Below, in pieces: positions 18,835 to 49,589 of a stretch of DNA of 64,000 bases. The DNA is taken from the NCBI GenBank assembly GCA_946403855.1, contig CAMJBH010000003.1, positions 62,001 to 126,000 of the forward strand, in the 5' to 3' direction. The position numbers were made by a program, and so were the translations under genes. The stretch comes from an uncultured Bacteroidales bacterium. GTDB taxonomy: Bacteria; Bacteroidota; Bacteroidia; Bacteroidales; UBA932. The number at the start of each line of letters is the position of its first letter. Within the stretch, counting starts at the first letter, position 1. Under the pieces are notes generated by a model. That model worked only from the letters and a program-made list of their open reading frames with translations, had not been told where the DNA came from and ran no database searches.

Positions 18835-20676
18835 ATGAAAAAGATATTCAAACTTATCCTTTGTGTCGCAGTCACCGCTGCCCTTGCATCTTCCTGCGAC
18901 AATCTGCTCAAGCCCGTGTCTCCTTCCTCGTTTGAAGAAGAGACCGTGTTCTCCAACTACAACCTCGCCGAGAGTTCCATCTTCGGAATCGTCCACACCT
19001 TCGGCATAGACAAGTCCTACAGGAACCGTTTCCTGCCTTGGTACGGATACAATACCGACATCGAGTGGTACAATACCTTCACCCCCGGCGACTCCAAGTC
19101 CGACATCGGCACCTACAACTGCCTTCCCAACAACTCGCAGCTCAATGAAGCCGAAGGCTGCTATACGCTGATGTACACGGCTATCGAACGTGCCAACCTG
19201 GCCATTGAAGGCCTGCGCAAGTTCGGCAATGTCGAGCAGAACGCTGACATGGCTTACCTCCTTGGCGAGGCCCTGACCCTGCGTGCCATGATTTACTACG
19301 ACCTCTGCAAGGCATGGGGAGACGTTCCCGCCCGTTTCGAGCCCGTAACGTCAGAGACCATCTATCTTGCAAAGTCCAACCGCGACGAGATCTTCAAGCA
19401 CATACTTTCCGACCTCGAAGAGGCTTTCGCTTATCTGCCTTATCCCGGCGCCACGGCTAACACCCAACGCACCGACCGCATCAACAAGGTCTTCGCTGAA
19501 GGACTGTACGCCCGTATCGCCCTCATGGCCTCCGGCTACGCACTGCGTCCCGATGACGGCATGGTGGGCACGAACGACCTGGGTTCCGTACGTCTGTCAA
19601 GCGATCCCGAGCTCCAGAAGAGCGTCCTGTATCCCAAGGCCCTCGCTTATCTGAAAGATGCCATCGCTAACGGCGGATGCCACCTTGACCCCAGCTACGA
19701 GGCATACTGGAAGCGCCTGAACGCCAAAGAGAACCTCACTTTCGACGGTGAGACCCTGTATGTCATTCCATTCGGCGAGAACCGCGGACAGTGGAACAAC
19801 TACTATGCAGTGCGCGTCGAAGCAGGATCCCGCTACAACACCTACACCGGAGCCCGGGGAGGCTCTACCGGCCCTGTGCCCTACTTCTGGTGGAAGTACG
19901 ACGAGAAAGACGTCCGCCGCGACATCACCTGCGTCAACTACAAATGGGACGGCGAAAGCGACGAACTGGTGCCTGCAGGCATTGCCAGCTGGTATTTCGG
20001 AAAATATCGTTTCGAATGGGCCAAGGATCCCGCCAGCAACGCTGACGACGGTGTGAAGCCTGTCGTGATGCGTTACTCCGACATTCTTCTCATGGCAGCC
20101 GAAATCGAGAACGAACTCAACGGCCCCACTTCTGACGCAAAGAGCTGGTTCCTCCAGGTCCGCAGCCGCGCATTCGGCGGCGACGTAGATGCTGCTGAGG
20201 CCTATGTCAACGGACTTTCCGGCAAGGATGCATTCTTCAACGCAATAGTTGACGAGCGTGCATTCGAATTCTGCGGCGAAATGCTCCGCAAGGCCGACCT
20301 CATCCGCTGGAACCTCCTCAAGACAAAGCTCGACGCTGCTAAGCTCGAACTCCGCGCCCTGCGCGACCACACCGGTGAATATGCCGGCCTTGGCGATGAT
20401 GTTTACCATCAGTACGACGAGGACACCCAGACTCTCCGAATCTACGGATTCAAGGTGGGCGAAACGACCCGCCCCGCAGGCGCCTGGGAAAAAGACGGCA
20501 GCTATTTCTCCAAAACAGTTGACACCAAAGGCAAAGACACCGGGCTCTACGACGGCCGCATCGACGGCATCTACTCCAACGGGGATCAGATGGAATGGTA
20601 CATGTACTGGCCCATCTTCGCCTCCCAGATATCCAGCAGTCAGAAATATCTTGTAAACGACTACTATTATGAATAA
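18835..20676 (+). CDS. susD: SusD/RagB-family nutrient-binding lipoprotein
   Basis: Lipobox ASSCDNLLKP; directly follows SusC; SusD-like length and C-terminal features. Confidence 0.94.
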   Translation: MKKIFKLILCVAVTAALASSCDNLLKPVSPSSFEEETVFSNYNLAESSIFGIVHTFGIDKSYRNRFLPWYGYNTDIEWYNTFTPGDSKSDIGTYNCLPNNSQLNEAEGCYTLMYTAIERANLAIEGLRKFGNVEQNADMAYLLGEALTLRAMIYYDLCKAWGDVPARFEPVTSETIYLAKSNRDEIFKHILSDLEEAFAYLPYPGATANTQRTDRINKVFAEGLYARIALMASGYALRPDDGMVGTNDLGSVRLSSDPELQKSVLYPKALAYLKDAIANGGCHLDPSYEAYWKRLNAKENLTFDGETLYVIPFGENRGQWNNYYAVRVEAGSRYNTYTGARGGSTGPVPYFWWKYDEKDVRRDITCVNYKWDGESDELVPAGIASWYFGKYRFEWAKDPASNADDGVKPVVMRYSDILLMAAEIENELNGPTSDAKSWFLQVRSRAFGGDVDAAEAYVNGLSGKDAFFNAIVDERAFEFCGEMLRKADLIRWNLLKTKLDAAKLELRALRDHTGEYAGLGDDVYHQYDEDTQTLRIYGFKVGETTRPAGAWEKDGSYFSKTVDTKGKDTGLYDGRIDGIYSNGDQMEWYMYWPIFASQISSSQKYLVNDYYYE

Positions 20677-27016: not shown

Positions 27017-27148
27017 ATGAACAAAAAGAATTACACTGCCCCGCAGGCAGAATGGCTCGAAGCAGACAGCGACTACTGCTTCCTTCAGGAGAGCGTTTCC
27101 GGCGACATTCCCGCGCTTGATGAAAGCGGAGTTGAAATAACTTGGTAA
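27017..27148 (+). CDS. Small ORF (43 aa), sORF family member 1
   Basis: MNKKNYTAPQAEWLEADSDYCFLQESVSGDIPALDESGVEITW*, 15 nt upstream of a lipoprotein gene. Confidence 0.7.
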   Translation: MNKKNYTAPQAEWLEADSDYCFLQESVSGDIPALDESGVEITW

Positions 27149-27163
27149 AAGGAGGATAACGTC

Positions 27164-28750
27164 ATGAAAAAGATTTACATTTTCGCTCTTGCGGCACTTT
27201 CGCTGCTTTCCGCCTCCTGCGCCAAGGAGAGATTCACAGACAACGGCACCCCCGCCGCTACAATAAGCAAAACCTTCACGGTAACGGCTCCACAGGGCAC
27301 CAAGACCGAACTCGACGGGCTCAATGTCCTTTGGTCAGAAGGCGACCAGATCAACGTGATTGCCAAAACTTCCGGCAACCAATATGCCTTCACTCTCTCA
27401 GAGGGAGCAGGTACCGCCAGCGCCAAATTCAGCGGCACAATCGCCGAGGCCGATGCCGGTGAAACACAGTTCTATGCGCTCTATCCCAACGTGGCCATAC
27501 GCTCCGAGGAAACCAACAACAAAGGCGAGCGATGGGCCCTCGACCTTGACCAGCTGGTCATTGACCAGGCAGTTACCGCCCAGGAGGCAGTCGAAGGCGT
27601 CTTCCCCACCACCGCAGCATTCATGACAGCTGTCAGCGATGCTGACGGCAAGCTTGCCTTCCGCCACGGCGCCGCCTATTTCAAGATTCAGATTAGCGCT
27701 GAGGGCGTCAAATCCATCCGCTTCGAAGTCAGTGGCGGAGCCCGTCTCGGCGGCCGCCCCATTTACAATATGTCGGACGGATCCACATTCCAGGTCAACG
27801 GAGCCAAGAGTTTCATGGACTTCACCTGCGAGGGCGGCTTCAAAAAGGACGCTACATATTACCTTCCGGTCCTTACCAAGCAGTCTGACTGCGGAACCCT
27901 CACCCTTACCTTCAACGGCGACAACGCCAAAACAGCCACTGCTGAAACGACATCGTTGAACAAAGTAAAACTTGCTTCCGGCAAAATATACGACCTCGGT
28001 GCGCCTGCTATCAAATTCACCCCCATTATAGTAGCTGACGATGTCGCAGTTGACGCCGATGCCACTTCCGGGTCCATTGCATACGAAATCACCAACGCCA
28101 CTGCCGACGGAGTGCTCAGAGCAACCCTCCAAGATGCTGCCGACTGGATTACTATCGGCGAAATCGCTGAGGATGCCGTATATTTCACCCTTTCTGCAAA
28201 CACCGGTGCCGTGCGCAGCGCCACGGTAGTTCTCTCCTATTTCTACGGCGCCGAGTCCGTCACCAAGGAAATCGTCATCACCCAGGCGGCCCAGGGCTCT
28301 ACCGAAGTTTCCCGCACCCATCTTTTCTACATCGATTCGGAAGGAACGGTAAAGAACCTCACCGACGGAGTTGACGGCGATTACTATACTGTCACCGGCA
28401 CAAGCCTTCTTGAATGTGCGGCTGACGGCTATTTCGGAGTTAACGCCTTCGAAATCCTTGGTAATACCTATACAACTGCAAAGAAAATCGACGGCAGCAA
28501 TAGCATTTCATTCACGACTAACGCCACCGCTTCATCTACCATCCGCTTCTTTGCCGCACGTCGTCAGACAGACAAAGACGGTATAATCAAGCTCAAGAAA
28601 GGCAGCTCCAACATCATCAACGCCAGCATGACTTACAAGGAACTCTACGACTCCGGGGTTGTGAATCTCGACAAGAACACTGAATATAAGTTCGACAAAT
28701 CCGGTGAAGTCGGAATATTCTATATCGAAGTGACAGAAACATTTGAATAA
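27164..28750 (+). CDS. Lipoprotein: fimbrillin-like N-terminal domain plus BACON-type domain plus C-terminal domain
   Basis: Lipobox LSASCAKE; TKTELDGLNVLWSEGDQINV...YALYP; BACON-like AADWITIGEIAEDAVYFTLSANTGAVRSATVVLSY...IVITQAAQ. Confidence 0.75.
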   Translation: MKKIYIFALAALSLLSASCAKERFTDNGTPAATISKTFTVTAPQGTKTELDGLNVLWSEGDQINVIAKTSGNQYAFTLSEGAGTASAKFSGTIAEADAGETQFYALYPNVAIRSEETNNKGERWALDLDQLVIDQAVTAQEAVEGVFPTTAAFMTAVSDADGKLAFRHGAAYFKIQISAEGVKSIRFEVSGGARLGGRPIYNMSDGSTFQVNGAKSFMDFTCEGGFKKDATYYLPVLTKQSDCGTLTLTFNGDNAKTATAETTSLNKVKLASGKIYDLGAPAIKFTPIIVADDVAVDADATSGSIAYEITNATADGVLRATLQDAADWITIGEIAEDAVYFTLSANTGAVRSATVVLSYFYGAESVTKEIVITQAAQGSTEVSRTHLFYIDSEGTVKNLTDGVDGDYYTVTGTSLLECAADGYFGVNAFEILGNTYTTAKKIDGSNSISFTTNATASSTIRFFAARRQTDKDGIIKLKKGSSNIINASMTYKELYDSGVVNLDKNTEYKFDKSGEVGIFYIEVTETFE

Positions 28751-28757
28751 GAATCAC

Positions 28758-28895
28758 GTGAAATCTACTCTCTACGCACCCCCTGTGTGCGAATACGAAT
28801 ATTACCTTGAGGCCGCCTCCCTGCTCACAGGGAGCGACCTTACCGACGACGGCGCAGGCGACAGCCTGATTCCGGGATCTGAATTCACATTCTAA
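28758..28895 (+). CDS. Small ORF (45 aa, GTG start), sORF family member 2
   Basis: (M)KSTLYAPPVCEYEYYLEAASLLTGSDLTDDGAGDSLIPGSEFTF*, 12 nt upstream of the PL1 lipoprotein gene. Confidence 0.65.
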   Translation: MKSTLYAPPVCEYEYYLEAASLLTGSDLTDDGAGDSLIPGSEFTF

Positions 28896-28907: not shown

Positions 28908-31900
28908 ATGAAAAAGACTCTTTTAGCACTTTTGACTCTCGCCGCAGCGGCTGCGGCCTGCCAGCCCAAGGAACTCGCGGACAGCGACTCCGGACTCGTA
29001 CGAGAGATTCCCGTCACCTTTACCGCCGAGCAGCCCGCCACCCGTACCTTCATCGAGGCTACGCCTACAGGCTGGACCCCTAAATGGCAGAAGGGCGACC
29101 TTCTCACCGTCACATACCTTCAGGACGGTGACTACACAGCACAGAAGGAATTTACGAACAGCGCCGAGGACGGCACCACAGGTGTGTTCAGCGGCACTCT
29201 TGAGCTCGCCGACGGCACCCATACCATCTACGCCTACTACCCCGCCGGCATGAAGGACGGGCGCAGCGATAAGACCTTCAAGTTCGCCCTGCCTCCCGTG
29301 CAGACCATCCCTAGCCTCACCACCTTCGACCCCGCTGCCGACCTTCTGGTCAGCGACGGCGCCGAGGTCGTGATTGAAAGCGGAGCGCTCAAATCGGCAC
29401 AGACCCTTCATTTCAACCGCATTTTTGCTGTGGCAAAGATAGTCATCGCCGACGGTACGACCGGTAGCAAGCTTGCCGGCAAAGCCATCAAGAACGTGAC
29501 CTTCAAAGTCTCGTCCGGCACACTCACCGGCCGCGCCTCCGTGGACATAAGCACGGCAAAGCTCACAGCATGGGAGGGCAAAAGCAGTTACAACTATGTA
29601 ACAGCATCCTATTCCGGCAGCGACTGGAAGGCCGACGGCTCCACCGGAGCATTTATCGTCATCAATCCCGCCACTTTTGCAGCCGGAGTCACCGTAACTG
29701 CAGTGGTAGAGACTGACGATTCAAGCATCAACATAGAGCGCAGCGTGACTCTGTCCGAAGCTCTCGCCTTCGAGAGCGGCAAGGTGAACACGCTGACATT
29801 CAGCATCAAGGACAGCGACATCGAAGAAGATACCGGCATAGAGCCCACTACCTGGGACTTCTCAGAGGAGGCCTGGCAGACCGCATTTGCGAAAATCGGC
29901 ACCATCAACTCCGACATCACCGGCTGGAACCTTACCCTCAACAACCTGACTATAGTTTCCACCAAGAAGAGCAAGTACAATACGACCTTCTTCCAGTGGG
30001 GCGGCGCGGGCGGCACCGACGACAGGTACATGACCTTCACCGCTACCACGGCCGGGAAACTCACCGTGTGGGCTTCCAACACAGGTTCCAGCGATGACCT
30101 TAGCCGCAAGGTAGAAGTAAGGGCCGGCAGCTACAGCGGAACCTTTGCCGCCGGTACTTCAACCAACAATGCTCCCACCGAGTGCACTTTCAAGGACGTC
30201 CCTGCAGGTGAAGTCAAAGTTTATTCTTCCGGAAACGGACTCCGCTTCTACAAACTCGAGTTCACCGGTGAAGTCAAGGAGGCCGAGCCCACTCCGGAGC
30301 CCGGTCCCGAGGATGGCGGCGAACAGGAGTGCACCACGCCTCCACCCACCGGAACAGTTGACCCTGCACGCATGTACGGTTATGCCGAGGCCGCAGGAGT
30401 AAAGGGAGGAGAAGGCGCAGACGCCCTGCATACCTTCCACTTCAACGACGGAGCAGCTCTCCAGACCTGGCTCCTGGCCCGTGAAAAGGCCGAGAAGAGC
30501 GGTGACAAGAGCCCCGTAATAATCTGGCTCAGCGGCTCTTTCGGACCCGAGGACGGCCGCAGCGGCGCCTTTGACGTGAAGAGGGTTTCCAACCTCAGTT
30601 TCTTCGGCACCGATGACTTTGTGATGGACAAGGTTGGAATGTTCCTTGTGGAGGCAGAAAACATCGTGATCCGCAACATCCACTTCAACCAGCCCAAGTA
30701 CCCCGTGGATGCAATATCGATGCAGGAATGCAATATGGTCTGGGTGGACCACTGCACCTTCACGTCCCTTGACCAGACCAAGGATGCCGAGGACGGCAGC
30801 TGCGACGCCACCCACGGCAGCAAGAACATCACTGTGAGCTGGTGCGTCTTCGACAAGACCCAGAAGAGCTGCCTTGTAGGCCACTCCGACAAGGTCAACA
30901 GCGACACCGCCAACGACCCCGACATCACCATAACCTTCCACCACAACTGGTTCGCAAAGTCCAGCTCGCGCCATCCGCGCGTGCGGTTCGGCACCGCCCA
31001 CGCCTACAACAATTTCTACGATGGCTGCACCACCTACGGAGCCGGCTCGGCCAGCAGCGCAAAGGTGCTCGTGGAGTACAACTACTTCGACGCAGTACAG
31101 CTGCCTACCGACATAGCCACATATCCGGCCAAGGAAAACGGCAATTCCAACCTGACGGACGGTACAGCAGGCTTCCTTTATCCCACGCAGAACGTTTATT
31201 ACAACAAGCCCGCCAAGGCCAAGGAGCCTTATCCGCTGTGCAACGTAAAATACACCACCTATCACGGCGCCACCGTCACTCCCCTCACCTACGAGGACTT
31301 CAAGCCCGACTACGAGTACACTGTCACTCCTGTTGAGGATATTCCTTCCGTTGTGACGGCCAATGCCGGCTACGGTAAGCTCTCCGGCTTTGCCACGGCA
31401 CCCATCGAAGTCAACAACGGAGGCATAAGCGGCGGAGGTGATACTCCCGACAACCCTGAAACTCCCGACACCCCTGACACCCCTGCAGCCGGCCTCGCCG
31501 AAGGATGGAGCTGGGTAAACAACAACGCCACAGCCAATTACGCCGTTACCGACGGCAAGCTGAGCATAGCCTCCACCGGCAAGTGGGAGAGCAAGGCCCA
31601 GGGCTTCGGTTTTGTGTACCGCGAGGTTAGCGGCGACTTCACCGCTACTGTCAAGCTGGTATCTTTCACCCCCCAGAAAGCCGGCAGCAACCAGGCCGTT
31701 GCGGGCCTGATGGCCATTGACGGTGACGTTTCCGCCACGGATGCAAACCTGGTTTACGGAATAGGAGGCGGCAACTACTACGGAAACTTCCGTCCCGCCG
31801 CCGGCTCCGACAGGTCAGGTTTCACGCTCAAAGCCCCCGCCACCAGCGGAACCGACGTGGTAATCAGGATGAAGCGTGAAGGCAATATCCTCAAGTTCAG

Positions 31901-32069
31901 CTATTCGCTCGACGGAGGTCAGACCTTTGGAGACGCGTCTTCCAAGGAATTCACTTCCCTTTCCGAAACCATCCACGTCGGCCTCGGAGTAAACAGCGGC
32001 GACAACAGCAAGCAAAGCACCGCAGTATTTGGAGATTTCACCATAAACAACACAACCATAGCATTTTAA
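28908..32069 (+). CDS. Multidomain pectate lyase (PL1-like) lipoprotein: fimbrillin-like + beta-sandwich + lyase + C-terminal beta-sandwich
   Basis: Lipobox AAACQPKE; ATRTFIEATPTGWTPKWQKGDLLTV; NMVWVDHCTFTS, TITFHHNWFAKSSSRHPRVRFG. Confidence 0.85.
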   Translation: MKKTLLALLTLAAAAAACQPKELADSDSGLVREIPVTFTAEQPATRTFIEATPTGWTPKWQKGDLLTVTYLQDGDYTAQKEFTNSAEDGTTGVFSGTLELADGTHTIYAYYPAGMKDGRSDKTFKFALPPVQTIPSLTTFDPAADLLVSDGAEVVIESGALKSAQTLHFNRIFAVAKIVIADGTTGSKLAGKAIKNVTFKVSSGTLTGRASVDISTAKLTAWEGKSSYNYVTASYSGSDWKADGSTGAFIVINPATFAAGVTVTAVVETDDSSINIERSVTLSEALAFESGKVNTLTFSIKDSDIEEDTGIEPTTWDFSEEAWQTAFAKIGTINSDITGWNLTLNNLTIVSTKKSKYNTTFFQWGGAGGTDDRYMTFTATTAGKLTVWASNTGSSDDLSRKVEVRAGSYSGTFAAGTSTNNAPTECTFKDVPAGEVKVYSSGNGLRFYKLEFTGEVKEAEPTPEPGPEDGGEQECTTPPPTGTVDPARMYGYAEAAGVKGGEGADALHTFHFNDGAALQTWLLAREKAEKSGDKSPVIIWLSGSFGPEDGRSGAFDVKRVSNLSFFGTDDFVMDKVGMFLVEAENIVIRNIHFNQPKYPVDAISMQECNMVWVDHCTFTSLDQTKDAEDGSCDATHGSKNITVSWCVFDKTQKSCLVGHSDKVNSDTANDPDITITFHHNWFAKSSSRHPRVRFGTAHAYNNFYDGCTTYGAGSASSAKVLVEYNYFDAVQLPTDIATYPAKENGNSNLTDGTAGFLYPTQNVYYNKPAKAKEPYPLCNVKYTTYHGATVTPLTYEDFKPDYEYTVTPVEDIPSVVTANAGYGKLSGFATAPIEVNNGGISGGGDTPDNPETPDTPDTPAAGLAEGWSWVNNNATANYAVTDGKLSIASTGKWESKAQGFGFVYREVSGDFTATVKLVSFTPQKAGSNQAVAGLMAIDGDVSATDANLVYGIGGGNYYGNFRPAAGSDRSGFTLKAPATSGTDVVIRMKREGNILKFSYSLDGGQTFGDASSKEFTSLSETIHVGLGVNSGDNSKQSTAVFGDFTINNTTIAF

Positions 32070-46667: not shown

Positions 46668-47959
46668 TTATCACTAACATTGGCGAACTTGTAGGTATTG
46701 TGCCGGAAGACGTCCTTAGGAAGCAGGGGGCCGAGATGTCTCAAGTCAAGTCCATACGCAACGCCTGGCTTCGAATCGCTCCCGACGGCACCATCGCCGA
46801 CTTCGGAACCGGCAGTGGCTTTGGTTCCGGCAGCGGCTGCCCCGAGCCGGCTTTGGCCCTTACGAACAGGAGGCTCGCAGCAGGCTCTGCCGGGGCTGCC
46901 GGGGCTGCAGAAGCAGAGGAAGTACTGGATGCCGAGGGCGGAATGGTCATGCCGGGCTTCTGCGACAGCCACACCCACGTTGTTTACGCCGGCAGCCGGG
47001 AAGGCGAATTCATCGACAAAATAAACGGCCTCAGCTACGAACAGATAGCCGCCCGCGGAGGGGGAATACTGAACTCCTCCGACCTGCTTCACGAAACAAG
47101 CGAAGACGAGCTCTACCGCCAATCCATGCAGCGGGTGCATGAAATGATGGCCAAAGGCAGCGCCGCCATCGAAATCAAAAGCGGATACGGCCTCAACCCG
47201 GCAGATGAGCTCAAAATGCTGCGGGTAATACGCCGAATCAAAGAAAATGTCCCCGCCCTCATTCGCTCCACTTTTCTGGGCGCACACGCGGTAGGCCGAG
47301 GCTACAGCCACCAAGAATATGTGCAGGCTGTCATCGACATGATGCCGAAGGCCGCTGAACTTGCAGACTTTGTGGACGTCTTCTGCGACCAGGGATTTTT
47401 CACTACGGACGACTGCGCCCGCATACTCGAAGCAGGAGCCCGCCATGGACTGAAGCCGAAGATACATGCAAACGAACTTGCCCAGAGCGGAGGCGTACAA
47501 GTAGGAGTAAAGTACGGCGCTTTGTCTGTCGATCACCTGGAAAGAAGCGGAGAGGCTGAAATCGAAGCCCTGAAAGGAAGCGGAACCATGCCCACCATGC
47601 TCCCCGGATCGTCTTTCTTCCTCGGAATTCCCTACGCCAAGGCCAAAGATTATATACAAGCCGGACTGGGCATAGCACTGGCATCCGACTACAACCCCGG
47701 CTCATCCCCTATGGGAGACATGCGCTTTGTGATGGCTCTGGGCTGCATAAAAATGCGTCTCTCCCCTGCCCAGGCCTTCAACGCCGTTACGCTCAACTCC
47801 GCATATGCAATGGGGGTGAGCCACCTCACTGGCAGCATCACCCCCGGTAAAAGAGCAGACTTGATAATAACCCAACCAGGCTGGAACCTGGACCGTCTGC
47901 CTTATTTATTCCAGACGCCCTTTATAAAACGCGTTCTGACAGCCGGAGTTTCACTTTAG
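46664..47959 (+). CDS. hutI: Imidazolonepropionase (with in-frame inserted palindromic element near N-terminus)
   Basis: MPGFCDSHTHVVYAGSREGEFIDKINGLSYEQIAARGGGIL, IEIKSGYGL, KIHANELAQSGG, ALASDYNPGSSP. Confidence 0.94.
   Translation: MIITNIGELVGIVPEDVLRKQGAEMSQVKSIRNAWLRIAPDGTIADFGTGSGFGSGSGCPEPALALTNRRLAAGSAGAAGAAEAEEVLDAEGGMVMPGFCDSHTHVVYAGSREGEFIDKINGLSYEQIAARGGGILNSSDLLHETSEDELYRQSMQRVHEMMAKGSAAIEIKSGYGLNPADELKMLRVIRRIKENVPALIRSTFLGAHAVGRGYSHQEYVQAVIDMMPKAAELADFVDVFCDQGFFTTDDCARILEAGARHGLKPKIHANELAQSGGVQVGVKYGALSVDHLERSGEAEIEALKGSGTMPTMLPGSSFFLGIPYAKAKDYIQAGLGIALASDYNPGSSPMGDMRFVMALGCIKMRLSPAQAFNAVTLNSAYAMGVSHLTGSITPGKRADLIITQPGWNLDRLPYLFQTPFIKRVLTAGVSL
46828..46907. repeat. Degenerate palindromic element inside hutI sharing core CTTTGGCCCTTACGAACAGGAG with uxaA
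   Basis: Core 46851-46872 identical to 25914-25935; imperfect arms around it (GAGCC/GGCTC, ggcagcggctgcccc vs ggggctgcc...). Confidence 0.75.
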
Positions 47960-49397
47960 ACCTTTCGCACAAAGGCTTCATGCCATAGATCTGCCAAGCA
48001 CGCGGGTGGAAGTAGGAATCTAGCCCGCTCTCGACGTCGTATCCTCTGGCGGCAGCCCTTGCCGCAATACCTGAAGGAGCCTGATAGACTATCGACTGGA
48101 TGGTGATTTCTTCGTAATCTCCATAATACTCATCATTCACATAACCCGCGAACAGCAGATTAAGTCCGTAAGACGCATAAGCAAAGCTCAAACTATGCGG
48201 TGCCGTGACATTGAAGGCTATATCATCGTTATAGATATATTGATCATCACACATTACTACCTTAATCCATACTATGTCTGTCTGGGTTTCGTCTTTGTAA
48301 AATCCGGCAACTATCTGGCCGCTGTAAATGCTGTACAGAGACTTATCGGAATCATATTCACCATACAATTCCACATCATCAGCAATACCGAAGGATTCGG
48401 CGGTAAGCAGGACTGGACCATTTGCAGCGTCTGCAGAAGGGCCTATCGTAACCGGGTCGCTGTAAGGGCCCAGGCCATTTGTCGCCTCATACTTGGACTT
48501 GCTATTGATAATGTAGTTTCCGCTAAGGTCACTCTCAATCTCTTCAGTAGAAGCCCCCTCAGGGAACACCACCTCGGCTGCCGGCATATTAATGCGGGTA
48601 TTGCGCTTGATTTCTACAGGGGTGGAGATGCTTAATAAGCACGGATGGTCGAAGTCAAAAGATTCATTAATAACATATACCGTGAAACCTTCGCTCAGCA
48701 CTGCCGGAGGAAGCACGAACCAGAAATCCGTAGCGGCCTCGGCTGTTGCGCCCAGAGTAATCGGCTCATCAAAAATCATATAAACATAAGCGTCCCCTTC
48801 AGCAGAGACGGTAAGCTTCGGTTCCGCTCCGGGAGCAGCCGTCACAACCGCTGCTCCGGATATAGGCTCCTCGGCATTGGAATCAAGCTCTAATCCGGCG
48901 ACAGATACGTTATCTCCGTATAATTTGAGGTGAACATAGCCGCCCACATTACGGAAGAAAAGATTCTCATCTTCCGTTGCGGAAATCATGATGTTGTCTT
49001 TCGGTCCGAAACTGTTGCCAAAACCCGACTGCACAGTAGGGAAGGTCACATTGATCTCGCCCTCCGCAGATATAGCATTATTAACATCATACGGATATAC
49101 TGCATAGACATAGTTCAACGCATCGGAATCAAAACCATCGCGCACAATCTTAAAGTCTCCGGAATTAGCTCCGTCGACGCCCTGGAATTCAGCTATTCGA
49201 CTTGTCTTGGTCTTATTGAACAGATTGATAGAATCTTTGGCGTTCCAATAAATCTTAAGATCTTCGGCATACAGCTTTGTACCCTGGAGGCCCTCTATGG
49301 TAGCATGGAACAGAGGAGAAGATTTAACCGACTCAATCTTGGTGCTGCATGACACTGCCAGTGCCGCTACTGCAATAAATATAAATAACCTTTTCAT
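47922..49397 (-). CDS. Fimbrillin-like lipoprotein
   Basis: MKRLFIFIAVAALAVSCSTK lipobox; KIYWNAKDSINLFNKT...YVYAVYPYDV...FWFVLPPAVLSEGFTVYV pattern. Confidence 0.7.
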   Translation of the reverse strand: MKRLFIFIAVAALAVSCSTKIESVKSSPLFHATIEGLQGTKLYAEDLKIYWNAKDSINLFNKTKTSRIAEFQGVDGANSGDFKIVRDGFDSDALNYVYAVYPYDVNNAISAEGEINVTFPTVQSGFGNSFGPKDNIMISATEDENLFFRNVGGYVHLKLYGDNVSVAGLELDSNAEEPISGAAVVTAAPGAEPKLTVSAEGDAYVYMIFDEPITLGATAEAATDFWFVLPPAVLSEGFTVYVINESFDFDHPCLLSISTPVEIKRNTRINMPAAEVVFPEGASTEEIESDLSGNYIINSKSKYEATNGLGPYSDPVTIGPSADAANGPVLLTAESFGIADDVELYGEYDSDKSLYSIYSGQIVAGFYKDETQTDIVWIKVVMCDDQYIYNDDIAFNVTAPHSLSFAYASYGLNLLFAGYVNDEYYGDYEEITIQSIVYQAPSGIAARAAARGYDVESGLDSYFHPRAWQIYGMKPLCERSKVKLRLSERVL

Positions 49398-49549
49398 TGC
49401 ATGTCCCACTCATAAAGGTTTGTATCATCGACAATGAGCTCTGTATTCGGCGAAGAGTCCAAAAGAACATCCGTAAGAGAGTACGGAAACAACTCACAAT
49501 CCGGTGCGGCATACCTCGCCTTGGTGCCGCAGAAACTAATTTTTTCCAT
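49394..49549 (-). CDS. Small ORF (51 aa), sORF family member 3, overlapping lipoprotein start (ATGA)
   Basis: MEKISFCGTKARYAAPDCELFPYSLTDVLLDSSPNTELIVDDTNLYEWDMQ*; TGA stop overlaps downstream ATG. Confidence 0.7.
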   Translation of the reverse strand: MEKISFCGTKARYAAPDCELFPYSLTDVLLDSSPNTELIVDDTNLYEWDMQ

Positions 49550-49581: not shown

Positions 49582-49589
49582 CAAATATA
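49582..49589 (-). promoter_or_regulatory. Putative -7 element TATATTTG for sORF3/lipoprotein bicistron
   Basis: TATATTTG on minus strand, 32 nt upstream of sORF3 ATG. Confidence 0.5.

Follow-up and report, generated by a model that had tools for sequence, protein, structure and literature searches.

The closest described systems are the linear polyphosphorylated peptides (LPPs) of Bacillota, RiPPs whose core set comprises a RiPP recognition element (RRE), an HprK-like kinase, an archaeal-type signal peptidase I (SpI), an NTP transferase, and an MsbA-like exporter (PMC13381572). Their leader follows the consensus YxxPxVLxHQxIxFETxxS, with a Tyr-Ser spacing of 18, and LppB residues N33 and D70 hold the leader Pro and Tyr (PMC13381572). 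The kinase phosphorylates core Ser3, within AQS, and the SpI-like enzyme cuts off the leader; in LppA, the Tyr is at position -16, and S3 of the AQS3 core is phosphorylated (PMC13381572).

Here, we analyzed a stretch of 64,000 nucleotides (the window) from an uncultured Bacteroidales bacterium, in which a sequence-only reading had pointed out small ORFs (sORFs) directly before lipoprotein genes. We consider it probable (ca. 0.8) that these sORFs are LPP-like, RRE-guided RiPP precursors scattered genome-wide, with one machine for all of them. A literature search, mainly of openly accessible papers, yielded no report of the sORF-lipoprotein pairing or of LPPs in Bacteroidales.

Three sORFs and their lipoproteins in a pectin locus

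The locus is a galacturonate/pectin operon, encoding a SusD-like protein, UxaC, altronate dehydratase, an oxidoreductase of the mannitol dehydrogenase family, and an MFS transporter. The coordinates claimed for two sORFs of 43 and 45 aa, ending 15 and 12 nt before lipoprotein genes, were confirmed, and the third pair announced at 49.4 kb was found there, with an ATGA overlap (Table 1). For two other lipoproteins of this locus, the SusD-like one (18823) and that at 20669, the search turned up no sORF of this type.

Table 1. Positions of sORFs, partner lipoproteins, and a promoter element in the window
Feature	Position	Strand	Description
sORF1	27017..27148	+	43 aa; predicted RRE-guided precursor; 15-nt gap between its stop and the lipoprotein 1 ATG (27164)
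Partner lipoprotein 1	27164..28750	+	528 aa; SPII signal, fimbrillin-like N-terminal domain, BACON domain, C-terminal beta domain
sORF2	28758..28895	+	Predicted precursor; 45 aa from GTG 28758 or 50 aa from TTG 28743; 12-nt gap to the lipoprotein 2 ATG at 28908
Partner lipoprotein 2	28908..32069	+	1053 aa; fimbrillin-like N-terminal domain fused to pectate lyase (PF00544), GH43_C2-like C terminus
Partner lipoprotein 3	47922..49397	-	491 aa; same N-terminal domain as lipoproteins 1 and 2
sORF3	49394..49549	-	Predicted precursor of 51 aa; 4-nt overlap (ATGA) of its stop with the lipoprotein 3 start
Bacteroides-type -7 element TATATTTG (TAnnTTTG)	49582..49589	-	Upstream of sORF3; pattern match only

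The C-terminal domain of partner lipoprotein 1 resembles, by Foldseek, the carbohydrate-binding domains of pectate lyases (8wc1, 8x8h). The same protein has a Pfam BACON match (9e-7) and matched the profile of the N-terminal domain at 7.5e-78, a value obtained with a profile partly built on lipoprotein 1 itself. Its AF2 model (pLDDT 84) matched the fold of the Bacteroides ovatus fimbrillin-like protein BACOVA_04980 (PDB 3ufi; Foldseek, 1.8e-6). Thus, the claim that the downstream lipoproteins begin with a fimbrillin-like domain is borne out by the common N-terminal domain seen with the profile and by this fold match; a Pfam search gave no match for partner lipoprotein 3. As far as modeling goes, the results suggest that partner lipoprotein 1 is a pectin-binding surface protein adjoining a pectate lyase.

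Recurrence, selection, and lipoprotein pairing

A profile made from the three window peptides recovered a fourth pair in the genome and then many in the genus. From 35 such peptides we built a profile (A3), which was run over ca. 0.95 Mb of sampled sequence containing 8152 candidate ORFs and gave 31 matches with E values of ≤0.001, the next best having an E value of 0.69. Of these, 30/31 immediately preceded a lipoprotein gene and the other was cut by the end of the locus, a proportion that describes context and not frequency, since part of the sampled sequence was fetched because of earlier matches. The A2 and A3 profiles miss a widespread GFAxS type, so a further profile (A8) was added. We counted at least 18 such genes in the parts of this genome examined (about 18 copies of the cassette), and the cassette is found in ca. 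11 Bacteroidales families, with matches far outside the window and directly upstream of lipoproteins. Searches of the peptides against Pfam, NCBIfam, PADLOC, and PDB returned nothing credible. The profile gap indicates that the similarity seen among the first peptides goes beyond chance; the ending described for them, E-x-T-W/F, is not general, and an acidic tail with a late aromatic residue takes its place.

Altronate dehydratase is followed by sORF1, lipoprotein 1, sORF2, and lipoprotein 2, wherever the contig suffices, in ten named loci, all of them from uncultured Bacteroidales or Bacteroidia MAGs, several from rumen or omasum; the small ORFs are conserved. Median dN/dS values among orthologues were 0.35 for sORF1, 0.27 for sORF2, and 0.22 for a fourth cassette, rough values in that many orthologue pairs are near saturation. 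The sORFs are under purifying selection at the protein level, and the two checks suggested beforehand, on codon-level selection and on orthologous loci, both came out in favor of genuine genes.

Three relatives carry an extra sORF-lipoprotein cassette between cassettes 1 and 2 (L100, 6862-8644; L101, 3926-5691; L107, 6788-8610) that is absent from the window; sORF and lipoprotein come and go together. The family has a further context in L081, L091, and L095 (genomes G316 and G244), where related Y..P..S small ORFs are placed immediately behind large secreted repeat proteins, with no fimbrillin-like lipoprotein following them.

The partner lipoproteins share one fimbrillin-type N-terminal domain (TKTxLxGxxVxWxxGDxIxV). 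Across 464 kb of this genome, with ca. 107 lipoprotein genes counted by a loose rule, 13 genes had a strong match to this domain and 10 of them had an sORF; individual inspection of the remaining three revealed none. Nearly all of the canonical PF13149 genes examined (type V pilin operons) also had no sORF. We rejected the idea of an sORF before every lipoprotein, BACON, or PF13149 protein; the link is to the one fimbrillin-like N-terminal domain. A simple regular-expression association was likewise discarded as too noisy, control motifs also being found near lipoproteins, and profiles were used instead.

The distance between sORF and lipoprotein had a median of 12 nt, with 45/67 pairs at 11 to 18 nt and 17/67 at -4 to 8 nt. 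A TAnnTTTG element was found within 150 nt upstream of 18/67 sORFs versus 3.7% of random stretches, and the Shine-Dalgarno signal in the gap was weak (25/67 versus a background of 23.5%). Tail similarity correlated with that of the partner domains (r = 0.73, and 0.59 after removal of the leader; 58 pairs). The correlation between tails and domains is expected for a co-inherited unit and is compatible with binding, although it is no proof of it. Together, the data strongly support a family of small proteins in close and recurrent coupling with surface lipoproteins of fimbrillin-like type.

Peptide anatomy and the RRE machine

The anatomy of the family was derived from 62 nonredundant peptides. 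The leader-like half reads Y-x2-P-x-[CAVI]-E...[AC]-x-S, with a Ser or Thr 18 to 20 residues after the Tyr in 61/62 peptides (spacing of about 19) and A or C two positions before the Ser in 46/61. The second residue after Pro was C, A, V, I, T, F, L, or M in the 62 peptides, Cys being the commonest. The variable tail after the Ser comprises about 20 residues, 25% of them D/E and 2% K/R (net charge of about -5), and has an aromatic residue among its last four positions in 55/61 peptides. In sORF1, the leader reads Y6-TAP...FLQ and is followed by E-S26 and the acidic tail. The real hallmark of the family is thus Y-x2-P followed ca. 19 residues later by Ser, mostly as [AC]-x-S.

Given that Y-x2-P is a leader motif bound by discrete RREs, we searched for PqqD (PF05402), which was present in 10/10 genomes tested, usually as a single strong copy; across the genus, a discrete RRE was found in 83/101 genomes. 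In this genome, the RRE (PqqD, 5e-16) is part of a cluster on contig C13 (30.95 to 34.2 kb), outside the window, together with an HprK-like kinase, an SpI-like peptidase, and an ABC transporter. The kinase assignment combines a weak HprK_rel_A match (6e-7, below the NCBIfam curated cut-off) with a P-loop, GxSGTGKS or the variant RSGTGKS, in 8/8 loci. The archaeal-type signal peptidase I model TIGR02228 gave matches for G304 (1.4e-10) and G324 (7e-8), both below its curated cut-off, and the Ser and His motifs of the enzyme were present in 7/7 loci, the peptidase of this genome being assigned by motif only. The exporter is MsbA-like (PF00664/PF00005; TIGR02203, 4e-71). Such clusters usually also include an NTP transferase (NTP_transf_5, 2.6e-43), which is present in G285, G304, and G324; none turned up within the 20 kb surrounding the RRE of this genome, which is 82% complete.

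Columns N35 and D73 are invariant in the Bacteroidales RREs analyzed here; judged by position and motif, they are the counterparts of LppB N33 and D70. Among PDB sequences, the RRE had a single match, the lasso peptide RRE TfuB1 (PDB 6jx3; E value of 1.7e-5), in which both columns are present. Two or more RREs of the clade occur in G340 (C25 and C65), G057 (C3), and G099 (C23); multiple RREs per genome possibly represent separate machines for separate precursor sets.

Among 292 Bacteroidales genomes, the RRE clade was detected in 21 (E < 1e-15), and the two sORF profiles marked 17, spanning many families. The RRE was present in 16/17 of the sORF-positive genomes (Fisher, 3.9e-21), a value uncorrected for shared ancestry and obtained with an RRE threshold chosen after viewing the list and a second sORF profile built mostly from RRE-positive genomes. 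With the first sORF profile alone, leaving out the genomes used for the RRE profile, 6/6 were RRE positive (P = 1.6e-8). The exception was G248 (L301), with a genuine-looking sORF, NYISPEVQIIVVEVEKGFAQS, before a fimbrillin-like gene and no RRE of the clade detected, while five RRE-positive genomes gave no match with the sORF profiles. Along similar lines, 28/40 of the domain-bearing lipoproteins in RRE-positive genomes had an sORF versus 0/5 in genomes with no detected RRE by the scan used, one of these five, in G248, later proving to have an sORF.

Physical linkage is evidence independent of this test. The gene order is sORF, lipoprotein, kinase, SpI, RRE, NTP transferase, ABC in G304 and sORF, lipoprotein, ABC, RRE, kinase in G203, and in G324 the sORF, the lipoprotein, and all machine parts are embedded, within 12 kb, in a capsule/exopolysaccharide-type locus (L169, 1-13651). 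In G115, whose precursors are not linked to fimbrillin-like lipoproteins, the sORF opens the cluster, with the kinase 38 nt further on and then SpI, RRE, NTP transferase, and ABC. Thus, a precursor is found inside the RRE cluster in these four genomes; in the genome of the window, the precursors are not adjacent to the machine.

Proposed pathway, alternatives, and related systems

An RRE-binding leader motif and co-occurrence, sometimes in one operon, with an RRE/kinase/signal peptidase/exporter set lead us to RiPP-type precursors. The N-terminal half would act as leader, its Y-x2-P-x-[hydrophobic] motif fitting into the groove on a single discrete RRE of PqqD type. The RRE would offer the conserved Ser to the HprK-like kinase and give the archaeal-type signal peptidase access to the junction that precedes the acidic tail, and the tail, with its negative charge and aromatic end, would be exported by the MsbA-like transporter. 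A single machine would serve the ca. 18 dispersed precursors. Each of these is presumably translated and inherited together with a fimbrillin-like lipoprotein of its own, so joint action of the mature peptide and this lipoprotein at the cell envelope seems most likely. More tentatively, the phosphorylated acidic peptide might dock after export, as donor strand or plug, in the fimbrillin-like domain of its own lipoprotein. If so, these genomes would hold genome-wide pairs of modified peptides and surface proteins, polysaccharide-degrading enzymes included, and a RiPP would be a component of surface proteins, structural or regulatory, and not a secreted metabolite.

Of the alternatives, chance or spurious ORFs would be short, unannotated, and below gene-caller cut-offs, as these are, but recurrence across the family and selection, together with the separation of E values (≤0.001 versus 0.69), refute this reading. 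The sORFs might instead be regulatory leaders, coupling devices whose translation opens or re-initiates the lipoprotein start while the product has no function. The tight spacing and the TAnnTTTG enrichment agree with this; however, Tyr, Pro, Ser, and the acidic tail are conserved by residue with low dN/dS, the sORFs co-occur with the RRE and have in-cluster copies such as the one before the G115 kinase, and other lipoproteins manage without an sORF, all of which makes it very unlikely. There is also little chance that the product is an unmodified cytoplasmic chaperone or secretion partner of the fimbrillin-like domain: one-to-one pairing and the similarity correlation would be natural for one, but it would leave unexplained the RRE motif, the co-occurrence with RRE, kinase, and peptidase, and the copies with no lipoprotein neighbor, and a short, variable acidic tail is unlike a conserved chaperone. 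Thus, from the sequence-only reading the coupling of a small-protein family to lipoproteins stands, while the roles it had considered, chaperone, regulatory leader, or secretion partner, lose ground to the RRE motif and the machine co-occurrence.

RiPPs often have receptor or immunity genes as neighbors, and the peptides could be released as signals or toxins, with the lipoprotein as a merely co-transcribed receptor or immunity protein and no partner in display or assembly. The unlinked G115 precursors would fit such a role. We regard it as doubtful, given that about 18 pairs per genome, including a pectate lyase and a BACON/CBM protein in a pectin locus, would be unusual for immunity genes. 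The preferred reading, that of RRE-guided precursors acting with their lipoproteins, provides a testable function for an unannotated small-protein family of which the genomes of gut and rumen Bacteroidales carry many copies each.

With regard to known systems, the partner lipoproteins are similar in fold, as seen for lipoprotein 1, to the FimA/Mfa superfamily (BACOVA_04980; PF13149) but differ in being fused to enzymes or binding domains. Lasso B1 systems (TfuB1) share the RRE match and the YxxPx[LVIAF] leader logic, whereas here the core would stay linear, and neither a macrolactam cyclase nor a B2 protease was found among the genes scanned next to the RREs of this genome, G304, and G324. The motif YxxPx[L/V/I/F/A] occurs in the peptides, although Cys, their commonest residue at that position, falls outside the published set.

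The strongest likeness is to the LPPs (Paenibacillus alginolyticus lpp cluster), which have in common with the Bacteroidales systems a YxxP leader, a discrete RRE with Asn and Asp, the HprK-like kinase, archaeal-type SpI, and MsbA-like exporter, in some of the genomes an NTP transferase, a Ser that follows a small residue at almost the same position, and, as in G324, clusters within capsule loci. The Bacteroidales peptides differ in the Tyr-Ser spacing (19 versus 18), in their short acidic cores, and in a leader middle with E three residues after Pro and ...GFA/LLC in place of HQxIxFET. Given that they depart from the full consensus YxxPxVLxHQxIxFETxxS and that their chemistry is predicted, we do not assign them to the LPP family proper. 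LPPs have been described only from Bacillota, with 1 to 3 precursors inside the cluster, whereas here many dispersed predicted precursors, nearly all of which would be overlooked by mining near the RRE alone, are each found with a fimbrillin-like lipoprotein. An LPP-like pathway stated to be restricted to Bacillota would extend to another phylum, and the picture of one cluster and one product would change to one machine with a large set of scattered precursors, every one of them linked to a surface lipoprotein, for example a pectate lyase.
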